Below are positions 763-52,726 of a DNA stretch of 64,000 bases, one piece after another (position 1 is the stretch's first letter; every line of letters begins with the position of its first letter). Made by a program: the position numbers and the translations under genes. The notes below the pieces were generated by a model. The model was not told the DNA's origin, searched no databases, and saw only the letters and a list, made by a program, of their open reading frames with translations. Origin of the DNA: Granulicella sibirica (GTDB lineage: Bacteria; Acidobacteriota; Terriglobia; Terriglobales; Acidobacteriaceae). The stretch covers positions 1,426,001 to 1,490,000 of the forward strand of contig NZ_RDSM01000001.1 in NCBI RefSeq assembly GCF_004115155.1, given 5' to 3'.

Positions 763-2757
763 CTACTTCTTGACCAGGCCCTTCGCCACCTCGACCACAT
801 GCGCGGCCGAGATGCCCAGCTTGTCCTGCACCAGCGGAGCCGGAGCCGACGCACCAAACCGGTCGAGGCCGATTACCGCGCCATGACGCCCGATGTACTT
901 GTACCAGCCCATGGTCGCGCCCGCTTCGAGTGCGATCTTCGGCACGTCGTGCGGGAACAGGGAGCTGATGTACTCCTCACCGGCTTCTTCGAGCAGTTTG
1001 AAGCTGGGCATTGAGATGACGGTCGCCAGGATACCGGCTTCCTTCAGCTCCAGCGCCGCCTTCATGATCATCGCCACTTCAGAGCCAGCCGCGACCAGGA
1101 TGACGTCCTTGCCGAACGACTCAAGCACATAAGCGCCCTTGCGGGTTCCTTCGAGCACTTTGTACTTCACCGCGTCGAGCACAGGGAGATCCTGCCGCGA
1201 GAGTGCCATGAAGCTCGCCGACTTGCGCTCAAGCGCAAGCTGCCAGCAAGCAGCGGTCTCGTTCGCATCCGCCGGTCGGAAGTCGGTGAGCTGCGGAATG
1301 GCGCGGAGGCTCATCAACTGTTCGATCGGCTGGTGCGTCGGTCCGTCTTCGCCGAGGCCGATGGTGTCGTGCGTGAAGATGTACAGCGAGTGGCAGCTCA
1401 TCAGGCCGCCCATGCGCAGCGCCGAACGGCAGTAGTCGGAGAAGGTGAAAAAGGTTGAGCCGAAGGGGATCAACCCGCCATGCGCCGCAATCCCGTTCAC
1501 CGCAGCCATCATGCCGAACTCACGCACGCCCCAGAACACATTCTTCCCCTTCGGGTCGACGTGGAAGCTGGGGGAATCCTTGAAGATGGTCTTCGTCGAC
1601 GAGGTAAGATCAGCCGCGCCGCCGAACAACTCCGGAACCGCCTTTTCGATAGCGTTCATGACCACCTGCCCAGCGTTGCGAGTCGCAACTGGCTTGTCCG
1701 GCGGGAAGACGGGAATTGCTTTCTCCCAGCCTTCGGTCATCTTCGATGAGAAACAGCGTTCGTACTGCGAGCCAAGCTCCGGGTAGGCCTTCTTGAACGC
1801 TTCGAACTTCTCCTGCCACTCAGCCTGGGCCTTGGCGCCCTTGGTTTTGGCCTCGCCCCAGTGCTTCGCAGCCTCTTCCGGAACATAGAAGGCCTTGTCC
1901 TCAGGGAAGCCGAGGTTCTTCTTGGTGGCCTTCGTCGCTTCCGGTCCGAGCGCTTCGCCGTGAACTTTGTTCGTGCCCGCCTTGGGGCTGCCGTAGCCGA
2001 TCACCGTGCGAACCCGGATCAGCGAGGGCTTCGTCGTCTCGGCCTTGGCCGCGAGGATGGCCTTCTCGATGCCTTCGAGGTCGTTGCCGTCATGCACCAT
2101 CTGCACATGCCAGCCGTAGGAGTGGAAGCGCTCGGTGACATCCTCGGTGTAGCTCAGCTCGGTAGGTCCATCGAGCGAGATCAGGTTGTCGTCGTACAGC
2201 AGGATGAGCTTGCCCAGGCCGAGGGTTCCAGCGAGCGAACAGCTCTCGTGCGAGATGCCTTCCATTAGGCAGCCATCGCCGCAGAGCACGTAGGTGTAAT
2301 GGTCGACCGGCGTGTGGTTCTCGTGGTTGTAGATCGCCGCAGTATGCTTCTCGGCGATGGCGAGGCCAACAGCCATCGCGATTCCCTGCCCGAGAGGACC
2401 GGTGGTGACCTCGACGCCCGGCGTCTCGCCATATTCCGGGTGTCCCGGGGTGTGCGAACCCCACTGGCGGAACTTCGCAAGCTGCTCGATCGGCAGGTTA
2501 TAACCCGCGAGGTGTAGTACTCCATAGAGAAGCGCGGAGGCGTGGCCGTTCGAAAGAACGAACCGGTCGCGATCGGACCAAAGCGGATCCAGCGGGTTGT
2601 ACTTCATCAGCTTGTGGTAGAGCAGATAGGCGATGGGCGCGCAGCCGAGGGGGGCGCCAGGATGACCGGACTTCGCCGATTCTACGGCGTCGACGGCGAG
2701 AAATCGGAGGGTGTTGATCGCTACCTGTTCAAGTTCCAGTACGCTCGTGTCGCTCAT
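763..2757 (-). CDS. tkt: Transketolase
   Basis: This is transketolase (664 aa), the thiamine-diphosphate enzyme that moves two-carbon ketol units in the non-oxidative pentose phosphate pathway. Family landmarks are present: the GHPGAPLG segment near residue 31, the thiamine-diphosphate/Mg motif GDGCLMEG at about 160-167, and the REFGM segment of the pyrimidine-binding domain with its catalytic Glu. The length is normal for a bacterial transketolase. The ATG at 2757 has a GAGGATC ribosome-binding site about five bases upstream. No other pentose phosphate genes are adjacent. The gene is complete and nothing in it looks abnormal. Confidence 0.97.
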   Translation of the reverse strand: MSDTSVLELEQVAINTLRFLAVDAVESAKSGHPGAPLGCAPIAYLLYHKLMKYNPLDPLWSDRDRFVLSNGHASALLYGVLHLAGYNLPIEQLAKFRQWGSHTPGHPEYGETPGVEVTTGPLGQGIAMAVGLAIAEKHTAAIYNHENHTPVDHYTYVLCGDGCLMEGISHESCSLAGTLGLGKLILLYDDNLISLDGPTELSYTEDVTERFHSYGWHVQMVHDGNDLEGIEKAILAAKAETTKPSLIRVRTVIGYGSPKAGTNKVHGEALGPEATKATKKNLGFPEDKAFYVPEEAAKHWGEAKTKGAKAQAEWQEKFEAFKKAYPELGSQYERCFSSKMTEGWEKAIPVFPPDKPVATRNAGQVVMNAIEKAVPELFGGAADLTSSTKTIFKDSPSFHVDPKGKNVFWGVREFGMMAAVNGIAAHGGLIPFGSTFFTFSDYCRSALRMGGLMSCHSLYIFTHDTIGLGEDGPTHQPIEQLMSLRAIPQLTDFRPADANETAACWQLALERKSASFMALSRQDLPVLDAVKYKVLEGTRKGAYVLESFGKDVILVAAGSEVAMIMKAALELKEAGILATVISMPSFKLLEEAGEEYISSLFPHDVPKIALEAGATMGWYKYIGRHGAVIGLDRFGASAPAPLVQDKLGISAAHVVEVAKGLVKK

Positions 2758-3021
2758 TTGATCCTCTAATCCTTCTGATCGTGACGTTGTCTTCTCTTAC
2801 GTTGCTTTCGTTCTCTTCAGTTTGCCTGATCCCGCTTCACTCGATCTCGGAACAGCCGTGACGAACGTTGACCCAATGCGCCATCTCTTCGGAGCTCTTG
2901 CGGGAGGGCCTTTCCTTCCGCGCGTCACAACAGTGTACAAGCGGTCACCGCGAATGCGATTGTCGATGCCTGACCGATTCCATGGGCCTATGAAGAAATT
3001 TCGATAAATCGGAGCCCGGTA

Positions 3022-5589
3022 TCAGGTCTTCTTCCTAGATCGCTTCGCCGCGGGCTTTGGCGTCGAAGCGGTTTCGGACGCGTCTTCCACGACATCCACC
3101 GCTGCGTCTTCGCTTTCGATCTCGGCCGGTGCGCTTACCGGGGCCGGGGCTGGGACGTTAGGGGTAACGATGGCCACGTCGTAGTTGCGGCCGACCCAGC
3201 GACCCTGCTCCGGATATTCCAGTGAGAACGAGATGGTAACGCCAACCTGGTCGATTCCGGTAGGAATATCTGCCTGGAAAAAATTCGCGCTGATCCTGGT
3301 CGAATCGAGGCTCTGGGTATTGCCCCAGTTGTCGATCGTCCAGACCAGCCGGAACTTCTCGTGATCGCTGATGCGCAGCGTCTGTCCAGCCGGAACGGTA
3401 GACACAATGCGCGTGGTGCGGAAAATCTCCGTGTTGTTGGAGAACGTCCGGTCCGCGGGAGCCTTGGCGTAGCGCTCCTCGACGACGGAGATCGTGTCGA
3501 ACACCTTACCGTCCGCGACCGACCGCAGGAGCTTCAGGTATTCGGCGTGCGCCCAGACCAGGGGCTGCGCGGAACCGGCCGAGAAACCGAGGAACATGCC
3601 TTCTTCTGGCATATCGGCGTGATCCCATACCTGCTCCGGCATCATGCCGCCGATCGAGGAGAACTTTTCGTAGGCCGTGATGAACGGCTTCACATCATGG
3701 CCGGCAGCAAGCTCGTAGTGGGCGCGTTCGCCGCCAAGCAGGGGCCACGCGCGTCCCTGTCCCCAGCCGCCGTACGGGCCGCCGTCTTTGCGCTGGCCGT
3801 AGCCGTCGTGGTTGTAGCGGCGCCAGCAGTCGCCGTTGGGCGTCTCGATCTTCAGGGTATGGTCGATCACCTTCAGCGAATCGACCATCAGCGGATCGTC
3901 CGCCCGGCGAATCCCATAACGGACCAGTTCGAGGAAGCCAGCGTCGACGACTTCACGGGCTTCGAAGGTGTTCTTCTCGCCTGGGCCGCGATTCGCGATG
4001 ACCAATGAGCCCACAGGAATCGTGTCGTTGTGGAACGGCTCCCCAGGAGCCGGAGGCGTGATGCGGACATAGTGCCGTTTGATGTCCGGGTGCAGAATAC
4101 CCTCGGTAGTCGTCGTCCACTCGTCGAGATGCGCTTCCAGCCAGTCGGCATACCCCTCGAAGGCGTTGGCGGTATCCGCCTTTCCGCCAGCCCGTGCGAG
4201 GTCCGCGGCGCAAACCAGACCCGAGATCACAGCAGCCAGGGTGGACGGCGAGTATCCCGAGTTCTCCTCCCAGCGCTCCTGTTGCGTCACCGGGGCGTAC
4301 TTGCACAGGAACGCAGCCGCAGCTTCCACAAATGGCAGCACGTCGAAGTTTCCGAGGCCATCGACCTTCCAGAGACGCCATGCCAGGATGATCGGAAAGG
4401 CCACTTCGTCGAGCTGTATTCCCGACCAGTAGGCCGTTCCGTCTATCCAGAAATTCTGCGCGAAGCCGCCGTTTGCCTGTTGCGTGCAGGCCAGATAGAC
4501 GAGCGCGCGGCGAGCCGTATCGATGCGTCCGCACGCCAGGAGCGAGGTTGCCGACTGCACCATGTCGCGCGTCCACACCAGGTGGTATCCGCCAAGATCG
4601 TCGTCCGACTTTGAGGCTCCCCACGGAACCGAGGCCGAGGCGATGAACGCCCCGGAGTACGTCTTGTCCTCATGAGTCAGCACGATATCGTGGCTGATGC
4701 GCATAAGCCTTCCACCGTCGGTCGAGTACGCGCCCAGGCGCGCCGGCGAAGCAGCCCGGTGCCACTGTTCAATGAAGCGCTTTGAGTGCAGCTCGTAGGG
4801 CGTCGAAAGCGTCTGCATCATTCCGGCGAGAGCGGCATGGTGGCCATCTCCGAAGGCGATCGCGATCGTGAAATGAGGCGTGTGCCCGCAGTTGATCTCG
4901 CCCATCACGGCCAGGTTGCCGTTTAGCGCCTGCCCGAACTCCCAGGCCATCTTCCCGTTCCGATTCAGATCCTGATAACCGTCGCTCGACCCCACGTACC
5001 CGCACGACGACCGGCTGAAGCCGCAATCCGCGCCCATCGCCAGCGAGACGTTATTCTTCCACGCTACGATGCATCGCTGGCCCGCCACGCGGATGGACCG
5101 CGCCGAGTTCCCTGCTCCGCCTCCGTCGAGATGCGGCGCCAAAAGTGCATAGCACTTCAGCTTCGCCAACACTTCCGGCTTGGCTTCGATCTTCACGTTC
5201 ATCAGGACAACCGGGTGATGCGGGTCCGAAATGAACTCCTTCGTAACTTTGTACAGGCCACCCGCGGCATGCCCCGTCACTCGCACCGCTGGCGCGTCCG
5301 GGTCGATGTAGCTGAAGTCGTACATGAAATCGCGTTTTTCTTCGTGGACGAAGGTCTCGCCATCCGTGAACAGCAGTTCCATGTCGCGTGTCTGCGGGCG
5401 ATCGATGGTGGGATAGTACATCTCGTTCAAGGTTCCGTGCGAGAGGGTGAACCACACCCGGCTGGACGCCGCATACGCCGTCGCTACAGCGTCTTTCCGG
5501 CTGGACGTCCAGCGCGGCTCAAGGCCCGGACCTCCGAAGGCATGTCCTTGATCGTTGAGCCAATGGTACGCAGATTCGAGGTCGCTCAT
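3022..5589 (-). CDS. Glycoside hydrolase family 15 (glucoamylase/glucodextranase-like)
   Basis: This 855-residue protein looks like a glucan 1,4-alpha-glucosidase of family GH15. The N-terminal half (about 1-270) resembles the beta-sandwich domain of bacterial glucoamylases and glucodextranases (motif [19 protein letters not shown]). The C-terminal half is an alpha/alpha-barrel with [10 protein letters not shown], a glutamate-bearing [14 protein letters not shown] segment, and the signature [18 protein letters not shown]. The last 50 residues form a Pro/Ala/Lys-rich tail. No signal peptide is evident, which suggests a cytoplasmic enzyme acting on glycogen or maltodextrins. It is probably a single-gene unit, separated by about 230-260 bp on each side. 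The exact substrate is unknown. Confidence 0.9.
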
Positions 5590-5816: not shown

Positions 5817-6428
5817 ATGGCTTTTGAACTTCCCCCCCTGCCTTACGCTTACGACGCTCTTGAGCCCTACATCGACGAAGCAACGATGAAGCTTCACCAC
5901 GACAAGCACCACCAGACCTACGTCACCAACCTGAACGGTGCCATCGAGAAACATCCCGAGCTCGGCTCCAAGTCGCCCGAAGAGCTCATCAAGGATCTCG
6001 CCTCGATCCCCGAGGACGTGCGTCCAGTCGTGAAGAACAACGGCGGCGGCCACGTCAACCACACCATGTTCTGGCAGATTATGAAGCCAGGCGGCGGCGG
6101 CACTCCGACCGGCGAGATCGCCGACCAGATCAACGCCGACTTCGGCGACTTCGAGACCTTCAAAAAGACCTTCAACGAAACCACCGCAAAGCAGTTCGGC
6201 TCCGGCTGGGGATGGCTCGTGTTCGATGGCGGCAAGCTCAAGATCGTCACCACACCGAACCAGGACAACCCGATCTCGACCGGGCTGTTCCCCATCCTCG
6301 GCAACGACGTCTGGGAGCACGCCTACTACCTCAAGTACCAGAACAAGCGCCCGGACTACCTCGCCGCCTGGTGGAGCACCGTCAACTGGGAAGAGGTCAA
6401 CAAGCGCTTCGCTACCGCCAAGAAGTAA
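5817..6428 (+). CDS. sodA: Superoxide dismutase, Mn-type of the Fe/Mn family
   Basis: This 203-residue enzyme disproportionates superoxide. The four metal ligands are visible: His27 (KLHHDKHH), His82 (VNHTMFW), Asp164 and His168 (DVWEHAY). The second-sphere glutamine comes from the C-terminal half (PNQDNP, near residue 148). The N-terminal position usually glutamine in Fe enzymes is glycine (NNGGGH). Both features are typical of manganese enzymes, although metal use cannot be proven from sequence. An upstream in-frame extension exists, but the ATG at 5817 is preceded by GAGGAG and begins with the canonical [17 protein letters not shown], so this start is chosen. No signal peptide is present. 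Confidence 0.96.
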
Positions 6429-43262: not shown

Positions 43263-43292
43263 TTGACCGGATCGTCGGGGCCATGCTAGCGT
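43263..43292 (+). promoter_or_regulatory. Promoter for leader peptide 3 and the CDO-rhodanese gene
   Basis: TTGACC at 43263-43268 and TAGCGT at 43287-43292 are 18 bases apart. The leader ATG at 43298 lies about where transcription would begin, so the leader mRNA could be nearly leaderless. Confidence 0.4.
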
Positions 43293-43297
43293 CGGTT

Positions 43298-43351
43298 ATG
43301 GCGTTTTTCGGGCTTCCTCGTTGTCGTTGCTGCCGACCCTCCGTCGGGTGA
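43298..43351 (+). CDS. Cysteine-rich leader peptide 3 (17 aa), upstream of CDO-rhodanese gene
   Basis: The ATG at 43298 opens a 17-residue frame, MAFFGLPRCRCCRPSVG, ending at TGA 43349-43351. It contains three Cys codons within four (CRCC), the same cluster as in leader peptide 2 upstream of the TonB operon (PCRCCC). No ribosome-binding site is visible, consistent with leaderless translation. A small CCGAC/GTCGG hairpin begins in the last codons. Its position ahead of a cysteine-metabolism gene suggests a cysteine-sensing attenuator or translational sensor; this is an inference. Confidence 0.55.
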   Translation: MAFFGLPRCRCCRPSVG

Positions 43352-44727: not shown

Positions 44728-45314
44728 GGATAAAGATTGCGAGTGTTGGTGAGCCTGTCCTGCGTGATGCAGCAAGGCCTCTTCGTCCGGAGGAGATTGG
44801 CACTGGCCGTATCCGCGAATTGATCGAGCATATGCGAGAGACGCTTGCGGATGCTCCCGGTGTAGGCCTGGCCGCCCCGCAGGTAGGGGAGTCGCTGCAA
44901 CTTGCCATTATTGAAGATAAAGCGGAATACCAGGCTACCGTGGCAGCTGGCGAGTTAGCCGAACGGGAGCGGTCGCCCGTCCCATTCCATGTCCTGATCA
45001 ATCCTGAGATCGAGTTGCTATCGCCGCCAGAGGTAAGTTTCTTTGAGGGTTGTCTCAGCCTCCCCGGCTTTGTGGCGATGGTGCCTCGCGCGAGACACGT
45101 CAGAGTGCGGGCACTGAATGAGACAGGGCAGCCTGTACAGATCGACGCGGAGGGATGGTATGCACGGATTCTGCAGCATGAGATTGATCACCTTCACGGA
45201 ACCTTGTATATCGACCGCATGTGGCACCGCAGCTTCTCCTCCATCGACCAGCACAGCCGGCATTGGAAGTCCAGATCGACCGCGGAACTTGTAACTCATT
45301 TTCGTCCTAAGTGA
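44724..45314 (+). CDS. def: Peptide deformylase
   Basis: This 196-residue metalloenzyme removes the formyl group from nascent proteins. All three motifs are present: GVGLAAPQ (46-53), EGCLS with metal-binding Cys110, and HEIDHL with His152 and His156. A GTG at 44703 could also start the protein, but the ATG at 44724, overlapping the stop of the small upstream frame, is the simpler choice. Its location in a putative sulfur operon, not near fmt or the usual housekeeping context, suggests a secondary copy. The functional essential def is probably elsewhere. Confidence 0.93.
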   Translation: MRIKIASVGEPVLRDAARPLRPEEIGTGRIRELIEHMRETLADAPGVGLAAPQVGESLQLAIIEDKAEYQATVAAGELAERERSPVPFHVLINPEIELLSPPEVSFFEGCLSLPGFVAMVPRARHVRVRALNETGQPVQIDAEGWYARILQHEIDHLHGTLYIDRMWHRSFSSIDQHSRHWKSRSTAELVTHFRPK

Positions 45315-45379: not shown

Positions 45380-45411
45380 TTGCATTCTTCAGGCAGGCGT
45401 GGTTCTATAAG
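45380..45411 (+). promoter_or_regulatory. Putative promoter of the tandem cysteine leader region
   Basis: TATAAG at 45406-45411 resembles a -10 box, with a TTGCAT 20 bases further upstream at 45380 that is too distant for a perfect -35. The leader ATG at 45419 lies just where transcription would begin, which suggests a leaderless mRNA. Confidence 0.4.
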
Positions 45412-45418
45412 AATAATC

Positions 45419-45499
45419 ATGTTGATCAACTTTTCCATGCGTTGTTGCTGCACTCCGGTTATCGCCGTTGAGTGCCGTGCCGCATGGTGTTGTTGCTGA
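45419..45499 (+). CDS. Cysteine-rich leader peptide 1
   Basis: From ATG 45419 a 26-residue frame reads MLINFSMRCCCTPV..., continues with one Cys, and ends AAWCCC followed by TGA (45497-45499). It holds seven Cys codons, three directly after an internal ATG at 45437 and three immediately before the stop. No ribosome-binding site is seen, but the ATG can be the 5' end of the mRNA. A perfect intrinsic terminator lies 58 bases downstream. This is the layout of ribosome-mediated attenuation; cysteine limitation would stall ribosomes in the Cys runs. Confidence 0.6.
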   Translation: MLINFSMRCCCTPVIAVECRAAWCCC

Positions 45500-45505
45500 T
45501 CTTCA

Positions 45506-45537
45506 TCTCTTCAAGAAGCCTGACCTCTCTTCAAGAG
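45506..45537 (+). repeat. Duplicated TCTCTTCAAGA motif between leader 1 and the terminator
   Basis: TCTCTTCAAGA occurs at 45506-45516 and 45526-45536. Each copy is nearly self-complementary, and the copies can partially pair with each other. They lie in the segment where an antiterminator or pause structure would be expected, but no unique alternative fold could be derived by eye. Confidence 0.45.
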
Positions 45538-45556
45538 TCTAGACAAGCATCATGCG

Positions 45557-45582
45557 AAGCCCGGTTTCTGCCCGGGCTTTTT
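45557..45582 (+). terminator. Intrinsic terminator acting as candidate attenuator
   Basis: AAGCCCGG (45557-45564) and CCGGGCTT (45572-45579) form a perfect 8-bp stem with a seven-base loop, followed by TTT. It lies 58 bases after leader 1 and about 200 bases before the TonB receptor gene, so transcription of the operon from the upstream promoter must pass it. Confidence 0.8.
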
Positions 45583-45670
45583 CTGCGCCCCTATCAAACA
45601 AACAGACTGCGATAAGGCGTCCATGTATCTCCGGATCCAATTCTCCTCTAGCGCCACCAAAGGCAGTTTG

Positions 45671-45703
45671 ATGCCTATGCCTTGTCGTTGTTGTTGCCGC
45701 TGA
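45671..45703 (+). CDS. Cysteine-rich leader peptide 2 (10 aa)
   Basis: ATG 45671 opens MPMPCRCCCR followed by TGA (45701-45703), with four Cys codons in five positions. AAAGG at 45659-45663 is a plausible ribosome-binding site. It shares the CRCC core with leader 3. The receptor ATG follows 77 bases after the stop. It may control translation initiation or transcription downstream, independently of leader 1. Confidence 0.55.
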   Translation: MPMPCRCCCR

Positions 45704-45779
45704 CAGCATAAGACACGCAATGCGCGCTCCTACGCATTAGCAAACCTGCGCGCAAAAAACATCAGCAAAGAAGAGGATC

Positions 45780-48700
45780 ATGAAACATCTGGTACGTGCT
45801 TTTCCTATCATCCTGGTATCGTCCTTCGCCATCGCTCAGAACCAGGGTGGTTCTCTCTCAGGCCTTGTCACGGATGCCAGCGGAGCGGCTCTACGGCATG
45901 CGCACGTGATCGTTCGCAACACGGCCACCAACAAGATCAGCCAGGCGGACACAGTCGATGACGGCCAGTACACCGTGCCTCTGCTACAGGCAGGCACATA
46001 CGAAGTCACCGCAAGCTACGACGGCTTCGAGCGCGAGGTTCATACCGGTGTCGTCCTTGCAGTGGACCAGCAGGGCCGTTCCGATTTTTCACTCAAGGTC
46101 GGTTCCGCGACCCAGACTGTTGAGGTCACCGCGGCTGCGCCTCTTACTTCCACGGAGAGCTCTGAGGTCGGCACCGTCATCGACAATCGCAAGGTCGTTG
46201 GCCTGCCGCTGAACAATCGTCAGTTCTATTCGCTCGCACTCCTCGCACCTGGTGCGTATCCGCCTGCACAGAACTCGGGCCTTGGTTATCGCGGTGGTTT
46301 CAACGTGGTCGGCATGCCGGAAGTGACGAATAACTTCAGCGTCAACGGCGTCGATGACAGCGACGAGATCGCCAATGCGCCTTCGTTCCGGCCATCCATC
46401 GAAGGGATCCAGGAGTTCAAGCTACAGAGCGGAACTTACACTGCCGAATATGGACGCAGGCCGGGAGCCCAGGTCAATGTCGTGACCAAAGGCGGAAGCA
46501 ACAGCTTCCATGGCGATCTCTTCGAATTCATTCGCAACCAGGCAATCGACTCGGTCAATTACTTCACCCTTCCCGGCGTCTCACCCTCTTTCAAGAGGAA
46601 TCAGTTCGGGGGCACGCTCGGCGGCCCCATCCTCCGCGATAAGACGTTCTTCTTCGTGAACTATGAAGGCCTGCGACTCAGGCAGACAGTCTCTCCAAGA
46701 ACAACTGTTCCTACCTCCACGATGCTCAACGGCGACTTTCGAAACCTTGGCATCTCGATCAAGAATCCGTACACGGGCCTGGACTTCAAGACTCCTAACG
46801 TGATCGATCCGAGTCTCATCAGCGGACTCGGAAAAACGCTCTCCGGATACTATCCCTCGCCCACGAGCGCGACGCTTGGAGGCGGGCTGCCAAGTAACAA
46901 CTACACACTCAATGACGTGCGGCGCGAGACCATGGATGAGATATCCGGCCGCGTCGATCATACCTTGACGAACCGCGACTCACTTTTCGCTAACTACAAC
47001 TATTTCAACGACCCATCCTATGAGCCGTATAACAATCAGTGCGGAACATCCGTGCTTCCAGGGTTTGGTTGCAGCCAGGGTCTCAAGGTCATTCACATCG
47101 CCGTTGGCGAGACACACACCTTCTCGCCAACCCTGATCAATGAGTTCAGCATCGGCGGCAATCGTCTGCACCAGCCGAAATATCCTGATTCCGCCCAAGG
47201 CAACTACTTTGGCTTGCTGAACGCGGCATACAACCTGACCTCGCCGATCGGCCTTGCCAGCACCAGCGTCAACGGCTATGGCAACCAGGGAACGGGTGCG
47301 ATGGTTCCATCGAACCGCTATGACACCACGGCGCAGATCAGCGACTCCGTCACCTTCCTGCGCGGGAAGCATACGTTCAAGGCGGGCTTCCTTTTCATCA
47401 GTTCCACCGCGTCTTACAAGAACACCGGCACTGGCAAAGCGACCTTCTCCTTTTCGCCGACGGCAACTAACTTCACCAGTGGCTATGGTCTTGCCGACTT
47501 ACTCCTTGGACTGCCGAGCACCGTAACCTATAGCCCCAACGCGGGCGCGACGCACCCCATCGTCAATAACTACGACTGGTTTCTCCAGGACGATTGGAAG
47601 ATCACGCCATACCTCACCATTAACGCGGGCCTTCGCTACGAGCTCAATACGCCGTTCTCCGACCGCGACAACCAGTACTCTACCTTCGATCCGACCCTCG
47701 CCTCAACCACGGACTCCGTCGTTGCGGATCACTTCCGTATTGCGGGCCGCAATGGCGAGGGCCGATATCTCACGTCCTGGGATCTGAACAACTTCGCGCC
47801 GCGCCTTGGCTTTTCCTGGCAACCTTTGAAGAATGCCGCCACGGTAGTCCGCGGAGGGTTTGGCACATACTTCTACTCGGCTGTGACCTTGACTACGGGC
47901 TACACCTATCTGCAGTCGCAGTTCCCCTTCGCCGTTGGGCAGACCTTCACCTCCACCAAGGCGAATCCGGTGCTGCTCTCGAACCCATTTGGAACGGGCA
48001 ATGCTACAAGCTCCAATACTGCCTATGCCGTCGCAGCCGGTCTCCCCACTCCGTACGTCAACGAGTGGAGTCTCGGGATACAGCAGGCCTTGAACAAGAG
48101 GATCCTCTTCGAGGCAACGTACATCGGTTCCAAGGGAACCAAACTTCCGCTCAGCTACAACCTCAACCAGGGGCCTGTCCGTCCCTTCACGACCTTCGCG
48201 AATATTCAGGGAATCCGTAACGGAGGCGACTCGTTCTACCACGGTCTTCTGGTGAAGGTAGAGCAGACCTACGGCTCTCACTTCACCTTCCTTGCCTCCT
48301 ACACTCTCGGCAAGTCCATCGATGACACGCCGGGTCTCATCAGCGCTGGCGACTCCTCGAAGGCTCTCCCTCAGAACTCGCTCAATCCTCGCAGTGAGCG
48401 CGGCCTCTCGGACTTCGACATCCGCCAGCGCTTCGTCGTCAGCCCTGTATACACGCTTCCCTTTGGACATGGGCAGCGGCTTCTGAGCTCCGGTATACCG
48501 GCACTGGTGACCGGTGGCTGGCAGTTATCGGGCATCTTCACGATACAAGGTGGCACTCCGTTCACGCCCTACTACGCAAGCAACAACAGCGGCAGCTTCA
48601 ATCTCTCGGACCGCCCGAATATCGCAGGCAATCCCAACAGCGGTCCTAAGACGGTAAACGCCTGGTTCAACACGGCAGCCTTCACGGCCGCGCCCCTCGG

Positions 48701-48947
48701 CACCTTCGGAACTGCGGGCCGCAACGTCATCACGGGCCCCGGCTACGTCGACGTCGACACGGCCATCACGCGCACCTTCCCCATCCACGAAGACGTCGCC
48801 TTTCAGTTCCGCGCCGAGGCCTTCAACCTCGCCAACCATCCCAACTTCCAGAACCCGACCGGCAACTTCGGCACAACCACCTTCGGCAAGGTGACGGTCG
48901 CAAGCGATCCACGTCAACTTCAGTTCGCCGCCAAGCTGCTCTTCTAA
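45780..48947 (+). CDS. TonB-dependent receptor with N-terminal carboxypeptidase-regulatory-like domain
   Basis: This 1055-residue outer-membrane protein has a signal peptide (about 1-19, ...SFAIAQ), an Ig-like/CarboxypepD_reg domain (GLVTDASGAALRHAHVIV, 25-110) and a plug region (VEVTAAAPLTSTESSEVGTVI, PLNNRQFYSLALLAPG, GSNSFHGDLFEFIRN). A beta-barrel follows, ending in the typical aromatic C-terminus AAKLLF. It belongs to the large acidobacterial 'Oar/SusC-like' receptor class. AAGAAGAGG precedes the ATG. It is the first gene of the putative organosulfur operon and likely imports the substrate; the ligand is not known. Confidence 0.92.
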   Translation: MKHLVRAFPIILVSSFAIAQNQGGSLSGLVTDASGAALRHAHVIVRNTATNKISQADTVDDGQYTVPLLQAGTYEVTASYDGFEREVHTGVVLAVDQQGRSDFSLKVGSATQTVEVTAAAPLTSTESSEVGTVIDNRKVVGLPLNNRQFYSLALLAPGAYPPAQNSGLGYRGGFNVVGMPEVTNNFSVNGVDDSDEIANAPSFRPSIEGIQEFKLQSGTYTAEYGRRPGAQVNVVTKGGSNSFHGDLFEFIRNQAIDSVNYFTLPGVSPSFKRNQFGGTLGGPILRDKTFFFVNYEGLRLRQTVSPRTTVPTSTMLNGDFRNLGISIKNPYTGLDFKTPNVIDPSLISGLGKTLSGYYPSPTSATLGGGLPSNNYTLNDVRRETMDEISGRVDHTLTNRDSLFANYNYFNDPSYEPYNNQCGTSVLPGFGCSQGLKVIHIAVGETHTFSPTLINEFSIGGNRLHQPKYPDSAQGNYFGLLNAAYNLTSPIGLASTSVNGYGNQGTGAMVPSNRYDTTAQISDSVTFLRGKHTFKAGFLFISSTASYKNTGTGKATFSFSPTATNFTSGYGLADLLLGLPSTVTYSPNAGATHPIVNNYDWFLQDDWKITPYLTINAGLRYELNTPFSDRDNQYSTFDPTLASTTDSVVADHFRIAGRNGEGRYLTSWDLNNFAPRLGFSWQPLKNAATVVRGGFGTYFYSAVTLTTGYTYLQSQFPFAVGQTFTSTKANPVLLSNPFGTGNATSSNTAYAVAAGLPTPYVNEWSLGIQQALNKRILFEATYIGSKGTKLPLSYNLNQGPVRPFTTFANIQGIRNGGDSFYHGLLVKVEQTYGSHFTFLASYTLGKSIDDTPGLISAGDSSKALPQNSLNPRSERGLSDFDIRQRFVVSPVYTLPFGHGQRLLSSGIPALVTGGWQLSGIFTIQGGTPFTPYYASNNSGSFNLSDRPNIAGNPNSGPKTVNAWFNTAAFTAAPLGTFGTAGRNVITGPGYVDVDTAITRTFPIHEDVAFQFRAEAFNLANHPNFQNPTGNFGTTTFGKVTVASDPRQLQFAAKLLF

Positions 48948-48975: not shown

Positions 48976-50055
48976 ATGTCTGACACGCAGAGCACGCCAT
49001 CCACACGCAGCAGCCTCTTCTACTCCCGCTGCCCTGCCGTTCCCACCAACTCCAGCCTGGCTGCGCAACTCGGCTTTCTGGACGAAGAGTTTGCGCTTGA
49101 GCACGATCTCGATATCCGCTCCGAAGTCATCGGTCTCGACCCGAACCCGAACCCTCCCTATGAGGATCGCCTCTGGCTTCGCCATGCCGGTCACGTCAAG
49201 GCAGTCTGGGCGCGGTCAAAAGGTGCAGACACAAAACTTGTTACTTTCTCCTGGCTCGAAGGTTCCTATCCCATCTTTGTCCGCCGTGAGTCCGGCATCA
49301 AGACCGTGGCCGATCTAAAAGGCAAACGCCTCGCAGCCCTCAAGTTCAAGGACACCCCCTTCGATCTCCTTCGCGCGCAGAACCTCAAGGTCTACGACGC
49401 AGCCCTTGGCACCGCAGGCCTCACGCTGGACGACGTTACCCTCGTCGATGTCCCACAGGAGAAGCACAACAAGCCGGAGCCAGACAGCAAGGGCACGGCC
49501 CCGAAGAAGAGCGTCTTCGCCTCCATCGCTCGCGACCTTTCGCTCTGGCTTCTCAACGACAAGGTCGATGCCGTGACCGCTCGCATCCCCGCGGATATCG
49601 CGGAGTTCTTCGATCTTGTCGAGATATACGACACCCGCAATCACCCCGACGCGAACGCAAGGGTGAACCCGGGCGTGCTACGGAACGTCGTGGTCAGCGG
49701 AGCCCTCTTGCGCGAACGCCGCGACCTCGTCGTCCGTATCCTCGCCCGCCTGCTCGAAGCGTCCGACTGGGCAAGAGAGCATCCGGAGAAGACCCTCGAA
49801 CTTCTCGCCAAAGACCTGAGCACAACACCCGAAGCGCTCGAGACCTACTTCGAAGATCTGGCCAGCGGCATTCAGGTCGACGCCACCACGCAACAGGTTG
49901 AAGCCCTGCGCACCCAGAAGGACTTTCTCCTCAAGCACGGCTTCCTCGACAACGACTTCGACATCGACGAGTGGGTGGATCTCACCCCCCTGCAGGAGGC
50001 ACGCGCGCTGCTCGCTGCCCGTCACGAGAAGGAAGCCGGCGTTCTCGTCTCCTGA
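48976..50055 (+). CDS. DszB-like desulfinase / SsuA-type substrate-binding fold protein
   Basis: This 359-residue protein has the periplasmic-binding fold of the SsuA/NMT1 family. Its start, FYSRCPAVPTNSSLAAQLGFLD, resembles DszB, the 2'-hydroxybiphenyl-2-sulfinate desulfinase, including the active-site Cys (Cys19 here). A second active-site residue seems kept (Arg69), but the DszB histidine position is Asn59. There is no signal peptide, and no ABC permease or ATPase gene is nearby, so an enzyme role is more likely than a transporter subunit. AAGGAG precedes the ATG at 48976. The exact substrate is unknown. Confidence 0.75.
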   Translation: MSDTQSTPSTRSSLFYSRCPAVPTNSSLAAQLGFLDEEFALEHDLDIRSEVIGLDPNPNPPYEDRLWLRHAGHVKAVWARSKGADTKLVTFSWLEGSYPIFVRRESGIKTVADLKGKRLAALKFKDTPFDLLRAQNLKVYDAALGTAGLTLDDVTLVDVPQEKHNKPEPDSKGTAPKKSVFASIARDLSLWLLNDKVDAVTARIPADIAEFFDLVEIYDTRNHPDANARVNPGVLRNVVVSGALLRERRDLVVRILARLLEASDWAREHPEKTLELLAKDLSTTPEALETYFEDLASGIQVDATTQQVEALRTQKDFLLKHGFLDNDFDIDEWVDLTPLQEARALLAARHEKEAGVLVS

Positions 50056-50132
50056 CGAAGCCCGCATGAGAGCAGAGCTCGCGGAGCTGCGAAGCATCCG
50101 GCTCCGCGAGAACGACAACACGAGGAGAGATG

Positions 50133-51464
50133 ATGAGCACCTTCAGCCCCGCAGTCCCTTCAGTCCCCTTGCCCGCTCTTTCCGGGCAAGAGACCGCCGC
50201 ACCCTCACGACCCGCGCTCGGCAGTTTCTCGCGACACGCTTCCCTGGCGTTGTTGCTTGCGCTCGGAGTCGTCTGTGTTGTGGATGCCGTCATCATCAGC
50301 TCGCTCCTCACGCCGATCAAGACCAGCCTCCACCTCACCGACGAGCAATTCTCCCGCACCGCTTCCCTGCTCACTTTTGCCGGCATCGCCGGTGCGCCCG
50401 TCTTCGCCTTCTTCGCCAACCGCTTCGGGCGCAAGCGCGTACTCCTCGCGGGCATCCTCCTCTGGAGCATCGCCTCCATTGGCAGCGGCCTCGCCGCGGG
50501 TCTCGCCGGCTTGTTACTGTGGCGCGCCACCACAGGCTTCGGCGAAGCCGCCTACAACGGTCTCGCTCCAAGCTGGCTCGCCGATCTTTACTCCGCGAAG
50601 TGGCGCAATTTCGTCTTCTCCCTCTTCATGCTGCGCAACAAGGTCGGCTATGCCGTAGCGCTGTGGGCTGGCGCAACCATTGCCAGCCGCTACGATTGGC
50701 ACCACGCCTTCTTCGTCGCTGGCATCCCCGGCCTCGTGCTCGCCGTAGGCCTTCTCTTCCTCAAAGAGCCACGCCCGGGCGAGGCCGATGGAGCAATTGT
50801 TCGAGCAGCGAAGCCAGGATCCAGAGAACTGCTGCAGGTCTTACGCTATCCCGGCTACATCGCGCACGCGGTCGCCTTGCTCGTCTTCTTCATCGCACAG
50901 GCAGGGCTCATCTGGATCCCCGCATACCTTCACCGCGTCTATGGCCTCACTAACAAAGAAGCCGCGGGTTTCTTCGCGGGCGTCCAGCTCTATACCCTGC
51001 CCGTCGGATTGATCGGCGGCTATCTCGCCGGTCTCACATTGCAGAAGCTTCGCGGCGGCCTCGCAGGCTTCCTTAGCCTCACATCTCTCCTATCCGCCGC
51101 CGCTGCCTACCTCGCCTACACCTCGCATGATCTCGCCGTCACCAAGGCCTTCATCATTACCTTCGTCTGCGCCTTCGGAGCAAGCGCCGGAACATTGACC
51201 ACGCTGGTCGTCGAGACCGTTCCGCCCGAACATCGCATCAGCGCCGGCTCCTTCTCCGCCATCATCTCCACCGGGGTCTCGGGCATCGTCGGCCCTGAGC
51301 TCATCGGCATTCTCTCGGATCACTTCGGGCTTCAGAAAGCCATCCTCGTCGCTCCCACGGCCTACTTCACGGCGGGCCTTCTCTGGGCCGCCCTGGCCAT
51401 CTGGCTCGCCACCCGCAGCCTCCCCCAAACAGCAAGCCACATTGAAGGGATCCCATCACGATGA
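50133..51464 (+). CDS. MFS transporter
   Basis: This 443-residue major facilitator has about twelve hydrophobic helices and the family loop motif FFANRFGRKRVLLAG between helices 2 and 3. VVDAVIISSLLTPIKTSLHLTDEQFS precedes it, and a second half carries FIAQAGLIWIPAYLHRVYGL. Two ATG codons (50130 and 50133) are adjacent; GAGGAG spacing favours the second. The stop overlaps the next start (ATGA). It is likely an uptake or efflux carrier for the substrate or product of the desulfurization pathway. Confidence 0.9.
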   Translation: MSTFSPAVPSVPLPALSGQETAAPSRPALGSFSRHASLALLLALGVVCVVDAVIISSLLTPIKTSLHLTDEQFSRTASLLTFAGIAGAPVFAFFANRFGRKRVLLAGILLWSIASIGSGLAAGLAGLLLWRATTGFGEAAYNGLAPSWLADLYSAKWRNFVFSLFMLRNKVGYAVALWAGATIASRYDWHHAFFVAGIPGLVLAVGLLFLKEPRPGEADGAIVRAAKPGSRELLQVLRYPGYIAHAVALLVFFIAQAGLIWIPAYLHRVYGLTNKEAAGFFAGVQLYTLPVGLIGGYLAGLTLQKLRGGLAGFLSLTSLLSAAAAYLAYTSHDLAVTKAFIITFVCAFGASAGTLTTLVVETVPPEHRISAGSFSAIISTGVSGIVGPELIGILSDHFGLQKAILVAPTAYFTAGLLWAALAIWLATRSLPQTASHIEGIPSR

Positions 51465-52726
51465 GCCTCTCCACCGCCGAAGCCCTCGAAGACGCAACGC
51501 AACCCACTCAACACCATCGCCCGACAGACTGGCTCACCATCGCACGCTCCCTCGCCGACGACTTCCGCACCCACGCCATCGATCGGGATCGCGAAAAAAT
51601 TAAGCCATTCCAACAGCTCAGGACGTTGAGAGCCAGCGGCCTGCTGTCTCTCTTCTATCCAAAGGAACATGGTGGCGGCGGTGGCTCGATCCACGACGCA
51701 GCCTGGTCTGTCCTTGAGATTGGCCGCGCCGACGGCTCTCTCGGCGCACTGCTCGCCTTCCATTACTACAACTCGGCCGTACCCCTCTTCCTCGACTTCG
51801 AAGGCGACAACGCCGCCATCCTACGCCGCTCTACCGAACAGCGCTGGCTATGGGGCAACGTCACCCAGTACGTCAACCGTGATTTCTTCGCCGAGCCTCA
51901 TCCCGACGGTGGCTACACCATCAACGGCACAAAGAAGTGGAACACCGGCGCCCCACTCGCCGACGTCACCACCGTCTTAGCCATTCACACCGGCCTCGAC
52001 CGCTATATCTACAGCGTCGTCCCCACCAGCCGCGAGGGCATCACCTTCCACGGCGACTGGGATCCCATCGGCCTTCGTGGAGCCGACTCCAGCACCGTCA
52101 CTTTCAAGAACGTCCGCGTTCATCCCGACGAAGTCATCCCCTGGCGTCACGAGGGCGTACAGGATAAGCCCATCCCTTTCTGGACCACATTCGGTGCCGT
52201 CTATTACTCCGCGGTCTACCTCGGCTCGATCCAGGGCGCGCTCGATACGGCACAGGACTACGCCCGAAACCGCAAGCGCCAGGTCCACGCCAAGAACGCC
52301 CCGCCAACCCACGCCGACCCACTCGTCCAGGCCCAGTTCGGCGAAGCCTGGATCAAGCTGCAGGCCGGCCTCGGCTACTTCGATCGCGTCATCGCCGAGT
52401 TACAGGAGGCATGGGACCGCCGTCGCAACATCACGGAAGAAGAGCGCAACGAGATCGCCGTCAAGACTCTTGCGCTCCGCTATTACACCGCACGCCTCGC
52501 CCTCGAACTTACCCCGCAAACCTTCGAGTTCGGTGGAGGCACCATGACCGGCGACGCCGAGGGCTTCGACCGCTTCTGGCGCAACGTCCGCACCCTCGCA
52601 TCGCACGATCCCCTCGTCCACTCCGTCCGCACCGTCGGCGACTACGCCCTCAACGGAACCCTCACCCGCTTCGGCTCCCACTTCCCCAAGCCCACACCAG
52701 AAGAGAGAAAGGACGAAACAAAATGA
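51461..52726 (+). CDS. Acyl-CoA dehydrogenase-like flavin monooxygenase (DszC/SfnB-type)
   Basis: This 421-residue protein has the acyl-CoA dehydrogenase fold but belongs with the FMNH2-dependent monooxygenases of organosulfur metabolism (DszC, SfnB). Features are GLLSLFYPKEHGGGGGSIHDAAWSVLEIGRADGSLGALLAFHYYN, TINGTKKWNTGAPLAD and a C-terminal helix bundle with QTFEFGGGTMTGDAEGFDRFWRN. DszC oxidises dibenzothiophene sulfur to the sulfone; SfnB acts near dimethylsulfone. Which substrate applies here is unknown. It is coupled to the MFS gene and to the amidohydrolase gene by ATGA overlaps. A separate flavin reductase was not found in the window. Confidence 0.8.
   Translation: MSLSTAEALEDATQPTQHHRPTDWLTIARSLADDFRTHAIDRDREKIKPFQQLRTLRASGLLSLFYPKEHGGGGGSIHDAAWSVLEIGRADGSLGALLAFHYYNSAVPLFLDFEGDNAAILRRSTEQRWLWGNVTQYVNRDFFAEPHPDGGYTINGTKKWNTGAPLADVTTVLAIHTGLDRYIYSVVPTSREGITFHGDWDPIGLRGADSSTVTFKNVRVHPDEVIPWRHEGVQDKPIPFWTTFGAVYYSAVYLGSIQGALDTAQDYARNRKRQVHAKNAPPTHADPLVQAQFGEAWIKLQAGLGYFDRVIAELQEAWDRRRNITEEERNEIAVKTLALRYYTARLALELTPQTFEFGGGTMTGDAEGFDRFWRNVRTLASHDPLVHSVRTVGDYALNGTLTRFGSHFPKPTPEERKDETK

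Follow-up and report, generated by a model that had tools for sequence, protein, structure and literature searches.

Tandem cysteine-rich leaders and a candidate cysteine-responsive attenuator upstream of TonB receptor genes in Acidobacteriaceae

In a 64,000-nucleotide stretch of the Granulicella sibirica genome (NCBI RefSeq assembly GCF_004115155.1, contig NZ_RDSM01000001.1, positions 1,426,001 to 1,490,000; hereafter the window, in whose numbering positions are given unless another locus is named), the gene for an Oar-like TonB receptor is preceded by two short cysteine-rich open reading frames (ORFs), leader 1 and leader 2. We consider it likely that leader 1 and the terminator behind it act as a trp-type attenuator of transcription that responds specifically to cysteine, and that leader 2 is a second cysteine checkpoint, which in relatives would act through a terminator of its own or, more often, through a Rho/tnaC-like device. 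This proposal is carried by the anatomy of the region, by its recurrence and conservation in the family Acidobacteriaceae, by covariation and by fold predictions.

Results

Anatomy of leader 1 and its terminator

Leader 1 occupies positions 45419-45499 (forward strand, as do the other features of the region and its operon) and encodes in 26 codons the peptide MLINFSMRCCCTPVIAVECRAAWCCC. Its cysteine codons form two runs, at codons 9-11 (TGT TGC TGC, 45443-45451, the proposed sensing codons) and at codons 24-26 (TGT TGT TGC, 45488-45496), with a single cysteine at codon 19; the second run abuts the TGA stop codon. The intrinsic terminator (45557-45582) begins 57 nt after this stop and consists of an 8-bp stem with the arms AAGCCCGG (45557-45564) and CCGGGCTT (45572-45579), a loop of 7 nt and a T-tract with its T residues at 45578-45582. 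Its predicted energy is -13.2 kcal/mol, and it outscores all of 20 shuffled sequences. An earlier, sequence-only reading of this DNA had pointed out leader 1, the stem with its T-tract and the mini-ORF MPMPCRCCCR, and all three lie where it had placed them. A -10-like hexamer, TATAAG (45406-45411), is located 7 nt 5' of the leader 1 ATG, and not 8 as given there.

Leaderless translation of leader 1, which the same reading had considered possible, is plausible. The spacing of the hexamer in the window is in favour of this, and so are the 15 orthologous leaders described below, 14 of which have a -10-like hexamer at a distance of 6-8 nt from the ATG (11 nt in the remaining one). On the other hand, the leaders of three loci (L147, L150 and L151) have a longer gap and, by eye, a sequence resembling a Shine-Dalgarno element.

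Segment 1 (CCATGCG, 45435-45441), the CGCATGG stretch (45481-45487) of segment 2 (TGCCGTGCCGCATGG, 45473-45487), segment 3 (CATGCGAAGCCCGG, 45551-45564) and the terminator 3' arm CCGGGCTT give the 1:2, 2:3 and 3:4 pairings of a trp-like leader. The full-length fold contains 1:2, with segment 1 as the protector strand of segment 2, together with the terminator. When the fold starts at the first Cys run and the terminator 3' arm is left out, 2:3 is predicted. In this putative antiterminator, identified with RNAduplex, segment 2 provides the 5' strand and segment 3 the 3' strand, the latter being also the 5' arm of the terminator. The bulged 2:3 duplex is predicted at -16.5 kcal/mol (shuffle p=0.036), compared with the terminator's -13.2 kcal/mol.

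Recurrence of cysteine leaders in the family

We collected 45 TonB loci by protein homology, 30 from a search with the window receptor and a further 10 and 5 from searches with the receptors of L138 and L151, queries that already bear leaders. The receptor searches, that with the L139 receptor below included, were limited to 12 scored candidates in each genome, and their counts hold among the matches listed. Within 660 nt, the 45 loci contain 15 short ORFs (sORFs) of the CCC type with an ATG start in sense and 2 in antisense orientation, where dinucleotide shuffles expect 0.55; one place (L133 and L142) is counted twice in this number and contributes 2 sORFs. The first 30 loci taken alone show 5 sORFs in 3 loci, one of them the window, against 0.36 expected. 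The Cys runs are therefore beyond chance, as the sequence-only reading had maintained.

Leader 1, a terminator and a second Cys leader occur together in L061/L139, L133/L142, L143, L150, L151, L140, L170, L172 and L173. The tandem arrangement with an intervening terminator, for which novelty had been claimed, is thus present in the window but not unique to it. L061/L139 repeats the entire tandem, with MRKNFTPNCTCCVCCRDAAFAWV and its stop, a terminator, a leader ending in APCRCCCR before its stop, and TonB. In one genome (L133/L138/L142, G019) the order is leader 1, terminator, leader 2, TonB and then a sulfatase-like gene, recognized by motif. All 10 matches of the L138-receptor search have a Cys leader, 6 by the strict rule and four (L145, L146, L147 and L150) by eye; among the five new loci of the L151-receptor search, 2 follow the strict rule, 2 have CC and one (L155) shows two separated Cys only. 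Four operons start with the sulfatase (L140, L170, L172 and L173) and carry a leader and a terminator before it and another leader between sulfatase and TonB; L172 belongs to the window's own genome (G000:C3). Sulfatases were called by their CxPSR motif, with Pfam assignments for 4 proteins (L161, L164, L168 and L170). Further neighbours of leader loci are FGE, DUF1501 and DUF1553 genes.

The leader core CGCCGGRATATGTTGTGGGCAYTGC, with up to 3 mismatches, was found in 6 of 398 genomes, namely 3 known cases, 1 new homolog (L178, whose leader has no good terminator) and 2 non-leaders; the backwards control gave 2. A pattern for CRCCC plus stop matched in 61 of 299 genomes of the class, and the 20 candidates fetched included 2 relatives, both in one genome (G021); of the other 18, 12 were rejected for want of an in-frame start codon and 6 because they overlap ORFs of at least 200 residues. 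CCCR plus stop gave 230 matches in 62 genomes of the genus versus 78 for the backwards pattern, and was discarded as a leader marker since, of the 30 loci examined (at most 1 per genome), a single one offered a start codon not buried in a long ORF, and no gene follows there.

Several side observations concern these loci. The leaders 1 of L147, L150, L151 and L178 make up a subfamily with the peptide core CC.RRAGICCGHC (a variant in L178), in which TGTTGTGGGC can pair, by eye, with the terminator arm GCCCAC. The sORF MLISSFYCCCFPSQQ, followed by a stop, lies in L138 at 1856-1903 (reverse strand numbering), just before the LysR gene that precedes the sulfatase-linked leaders. The sulfatase gene that precedes leader 2 in L173 of G024 appears as two ORFs that overlap (1765-3170, reverse strand numbering).

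From a longer list of homologous TonB loci belonging to the other families in the class, 24 were fetched; 4 end at contig ends and are uninformative, and the 20 with upstream sequence contain one weak TTG-start sORF only. In genus g16, which is of the same family, leaders are present in 3/3 loci (one of them again L159). The Cys leader layout was not seen outside the family among the loci examined.

Conserved leaders before yeiH-like genes

The receptor of L139 is matched at E <= 1e-150 in 51 of the 62 genus genomes. In all of the best 30 of 57 listed matches the receptor is preceded by a Cys-rich sORF; the rule picks out 23 of these (antisense 5/30), and the other 7, recognized by eye, show CC or CRC close to the stop. 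Of 20 loci extended upstream, 15 (L238-L252) have a yeiH-like gene that follows leader 1 and is separated from TonB by leader 2. According to tblastn, these yeiH-like genes are 75-100% identical to the L238 copy; the two proteins scanned match PF03601 above its cut-off and TIGR00698, "putative sulfate export transporter", below it. The window's genome also has such a yeiH-TonB locus (L239/L200).

In all 15 orthologous yeiH leaders 1 the terminator scores above 20/20 shuffles, and a TTGAC element lies upstream in 15/15 (by eye). Their alignment keeps the Cys clusters with synonymous exchanges between TGC and TGT (53 and 70 codons), and the peptide, with 7-9 Cys, is conserved as a sequence. The terminator and a hairpin beginning at the stop codon covary, with 7 pairs changed on both sides and 95.2% of the cells paired, a result reached in 0/500 shuffles, although these counts rely on a structure derived from the same alignment. 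In the consensus fold with an occupied first Cys cluster, the final Cys run (TGCTGCTGCGTYGG) is paired with GGAACCCACGTATCAGC, a stretch that contains the terminator 5' arm; 95.5% of the cells are paired in this predicted antiterminator, compared to at most 41% in slid versions.

Predicted folds with a ribosome in place

Terminators were evaluated in 22 hand-picked leaders, in which leaders 1 and 2 are mixed. In 17 of the 22 the terminator scores above 20/20 shuffles; L147_l1 loses to 1/20, and in L157_l1, L147_l2, L159_l2 and L178_l1 it does not stand out from the shuffles, L159_l2 having, by eye, a bulged terminator-like hairpin. The 18 leaders that remained after the four without a terminator had been dropped were used for the arm-pairing tests. 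Predicted sequestration of the terminator 5' arm averages 0.71 with a ribosome at the first Cys cluster and 0.30 with a ribosome at the stop, and is higher in the stalled state in 16/18 leaders. Shuffled leaders reach 0.50 when stalled (sd, standard deviation, 0.05; maximum 0.595 of 60) and 0.38 at the stop, so that the observed difference of 0.41 compares with 0.12 in shuffles (sd 0.07, maximum 0.29 of 60). The partner strand of the arm starts 4-13 codons past the first Cys cluster in 14/18 leaders (null 0.276), a range that was set after the duplex results had been seen. For the leaders as a set, these predictions support an antiterminator that would exclude the terminator and be freed by a stalled ribosome; for the window alone they are suggestive only.

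Leader 2 and its spacer

Leader 2 has a long form of 26 codons from the ATG at 45623 (MYLRIQFSSSATKGSLMPMPCRCCCR, 45623-45703) and a short form, MPMPCRCCCR (45671-45703), and both contain the CRCCC codons TGT CGT TGT TGT TGC (45683-45697) beside the stop. The spacer to the receptor gene (45704-45779) contains no intrinsic terminator, as 6/20 shuffles score as high. A leader 2 with its own terminator is seen in L149-L151 and L154-L157. In the 27 receptor loci with a leader 2 that were drawn from the 30 core loci, only 1/27 has a terminator that outscores every shuffle. Terminators of this strength thus follow 15/15 of the yeiH leaders 1 compared to 1/27 and, in a second set given below, 0/8 of the leaders 2, so that leader 1 and the majority of leaders 2 represent different devices.

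Where leader 2 has no terminator of its own, its Cys codons are near the stop and are followed by a C-rich, G-poor spacer. The C-G value after leader 2 is 0.166 in the 27 loci, L185, L187 and L188 having been left out for lack of an evident leader 2, versus -0.012 in 28 control receptor loci that lack leaders of this kind. The control sequence was the 70-150 nt before the receptor match and thus not the same place as the spacers, and one control (L114) has a doubtful sORF. In many yeiH-TonB loci (L189-L206) a stretch like GCGAGAACCAGC(C)CC directly follows the leader 2 stop, as judged by eye.

Proposed mechanism

From these data we infer ribosome stalling, termination, the cysteine signal and the mode of action of leader 2 as follows. 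A ribosome would start leader 1 at the RNA 5' end or within a few bases of it. With enough Cys-tRNA, it would reach the stop codon and cover segment 2, whereupon the 3:4 terminator would form and the operon would be off. If Cys-tRNA were short, it would stall at the first Cys run, segment 2 (45473-45487) would pair with segment 3 (45551-45564), and RNA polymerase would read through. With no translation, 1:2 would form and termination would prevail. Leader 2 would serve as a second Cys checkpoint for the receptor gene; where it has no terminator, a ribosome stalled by the stop codon may keep Rho off the C-rich spacer, in the manner of tnaC. The cysteine-responsive attenuator postulated by the sequence-only reading draws its support from relatives, in which Cys codons are kept, terminators follow leader 1, antiterminators are conserved or predicted and sulfur-related genes lie nearby, all of which is consistent with a putative response to cysteine.

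Evidence against the attenuator and alternative explanations

Several results weigh against the proposed attenuator, and many of them concern the window itself. A strict promoter scan of the window found no full promoter, the -35 element being absent, and a stricter consensus terminator scan omits the terminator, whose T-tract is short (4 T in the 8 bases 3' of the stem). Arm sequestration in the window alone is not beyond shuffles (17/60), and its best ungapped helix has p=0.45, in a search that misses the bulged antiterminator. Moreover, a ribosome halted at the second Cys run would cover segment 2, with the opposite effect. For the leaders as a set, the pairing tests left out the four without a terminator, the stalled/stop difference is absent in L151_l1 and L155_l2, and the Fisher p values of the duplex tests (0.0085 for 14 leaders, 0.0048 for 18) are optimistic since the test leaders are partly related. 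The yeiH antiterminator shows 0 covarying pairs, which shuffles equal. Other constraints on the two strands would produce this result, which also gives no independent proof of that pairing. Among 8 leaders 2 outside the hand-picked 22, the window's included, 0/8 have a terminator above all shuffles (one locus is common to this set and the 27). The C-G value of the window spacer is only 0.08, about 1 sd above the control mean, and it is composition from which we conclude that leader 2 is possibly a Rho-type, tnaC-like device.

The exact window locus had no ortholog in the genomes searched, which also weighs against the attenuator. A DNA search with the 501-nt region in 41 genomes returned the self-match and a 25-nt match (L002), which was rejected as a chance match in a low-complexity stretch. 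The 7 nearest TonB relatives fetched (39-47% identity) include 6 without such an sORF directly upstream; that of the seventh, L114, is doubtful, as the homologous region in L111 has no Cys run (by eye). Conservation of the Cys runs and the stem, which the sequence-only reading had proposed as a check, is seen in the 15 yeiH leaders, and the arrangement recurs elsewhere in the family.

Could a different mechanism account for the same features? In translational attenuation, as reported for the polycysteine upstream ORFs of mycobacteria, the stalled ribosome would make the next gene's ribosome-binding site accessible, and the role of the terminator would be limited to ending background transcription. 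That the window, like most loci, has no intrinsic terminator after leader 2 (0/8 and 1/27) fits this model, as do mycobacterial Cys leaders, which in the available parts of two sources have no conserved terminators (PMC1262725) and are cited as translation attenuation (PMC13236596). However, a strong terminator follows 15/15 yeiH leaders and 17/22 others, and it is the terminator arm that the predicted stall-dependent sequestration concerns. We regard this explanation as rather unlikely, and for leader 1 trp-type transcription attenuation is better supported than a mechanism of the mycobacterial type, whose sORFs the sequence-only reading had named for comparison.

It is improbable, in our estimate, that the terminator serves the peptide deformylase gene upstream and that the Cys codons have no role. 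That gene ends at 45314, leader 1 begins 104 nt downstream of it, and the window has no -35 element; yet Cys leaders with terminators recur behind unrelated genes (aminotransferase, LysR, PEPCK), and the 15 orthologous leaders keep their Cys clusters and TTGAC element, with chance expecting 0.55 sORFs in 45 loci. The peptides might act themselves, for instance in metal binding or redox sensing, and not via ribosome position. The yeiH leader peptide is indeed conserved as a sequence, but RNA pairings account for part of the conserved stretch, and outside the yeiH group the non-Cys residues diverge widely (by eye) where the Cys runs stay, so that we hold this to be very improbable. Finally, SAM (S-adenosylmethionine) riboswitches control sulfur operons elsewhere, but control of this operon through an RNA element that binds SAM, O-acetylserine or a protein responding to them, with the sORFs as by-products, has the slimmest prospects: a search of 12 loci, that of the window (L108) among them, against Rfam gave 0 matches at gathering thresholds.

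Genes of the operon and its surroundings

The Oar-like TonB receptor gene (PF25183, CarboxypepD_reg; 45780-48947) is followed by genes for an SsuA-family-like/NMT1 substrate-binding protein (48976-50055; SsuA score below cut-off), an MFS transporter (50130-51464), a DszC/SfnB-like flavin monooxygenase of the acyl-CoA dehydrogenase fold (51461-52726; DszC 8e-69 and SfnB 1e-55, both below the family cut-offs) and an amidohydrolase (PF04909; 52708-53739). Upstream of leader 1 are a cysteine dioxygenase-rhodanese gene and the peptide deformylase gene. A Cys-rich sORF, MLASVMAFFGLPRCRCCRPSVG (43283-43351), lies upstream of the former and is possibly due to chance.

The DszC/SfnB-like gene is rare, with 2 occurrences in 200 genomes of the family, and the window operon may therefore be a local acquisition under a resident type of control. 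The second occurrence (G090, locus L174) was rejected as a leader-bearing relative, as no convincing leader was found there. For the binding protein, a scan of named genomes, from which near relatives may be left out, gave 3 distant relatives. L115, a near relative of the receptor, has MPFCSYRETTCCCCR further up, before the preceding peptidase gene; in L141 the same peptide (5866-5913), with GATAAG 8 nt before its ATG, is encoded upstream of an M14 peptidase gene and a TonB gene.

Discussion

Could the two leaders be part of a wider system? With the same layout also in front of sulfatase-TonB and yeiH-TonB operons, a sulfur-starvation regulon would result. We tentatively entertain, with somewhat more doubt than conviction, a family-wide, RNA-only cysteine/sulfur-starvation regulon with two differing checkpoints per operon, namely a leaderless 5' attenuator with an intrinsic terminator and a Rho-type device or second terminator before the receptor, such that the receptor would be made only if Cys-tRNA were short twice in a row. 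If this is true, the leaders represent a large functional class in Acidobacteria that ties orphan TonB receptors to sulfur, and their tandem attenuators form a natural series that allows leaderless initiation, stalling and termination to be studied jointly. Cys leaders would also make it simple to recognize, from sequence, operons for the uptake of organosulfur compounds and sulfate esters. The NCBIfam leader peptide families gave 0 hidden Markov model matches for 5 peptides, and no account of Cys leader attenuators in this bacterial group was found among the matches listed in the open-licence literature.

In comparison to leaders of the trp/his type, including that of ilvB in Mycobacterium in the available part of its description (PMC13236596), the layout shares the runs of cognate codons, the terminator just downstream and the alternative antiterminator, and the window also has the protector helix. 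It differs in cysteine as the proposed signal, in the probably leaderless start and in the doubled leaders, and its targets are outer-membrane receptors, sulfatases and YeiH, not a biosynthetic operon.

Canestrari et al. 2020 reportedly described polycysteine leaderless short ORFs upstream of sulfur genes in mycobacteria. Compared by features and not by sequence homology, these are alike in their Cys runs, their probably leaderless nature and their position upstream of sulfur genes, whereas here leaders 1 have intrinsic terminators and the leaders are in tandem. In TnaC of the Escherichia coli tryptophanase operon, a ribosome held by the stop codon shields a Rho site, and it stalls on free tryptophan. 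The likeness of leader 2 to tnaC (PMC8429421) lies in the proposed stop-adjacent ribosome that would shield a Rho site, but here we propose stalling by starvation.

Cys leader peptides upstream of cys and cbs operons of Mycobacterium, P. acnes and B. longum were described by Seliverstov et al. 2005 (PMC1262725). In the part of that work available, terminators were not found for these actinobacterial leaders and Rho was suggested. Their Cys runs lie beside the stop and are followed by a polypyrimidine stretch, as in leader 2, although the genes differ. Leader-peptide attenuation and actinobacterial Cys leaders are already known; what appears to be new is a putatively cysteine-specific form in which the leaders are doubled, leader 1 has an intrinsic terminator and the targets are uptake and sulfatase genes.

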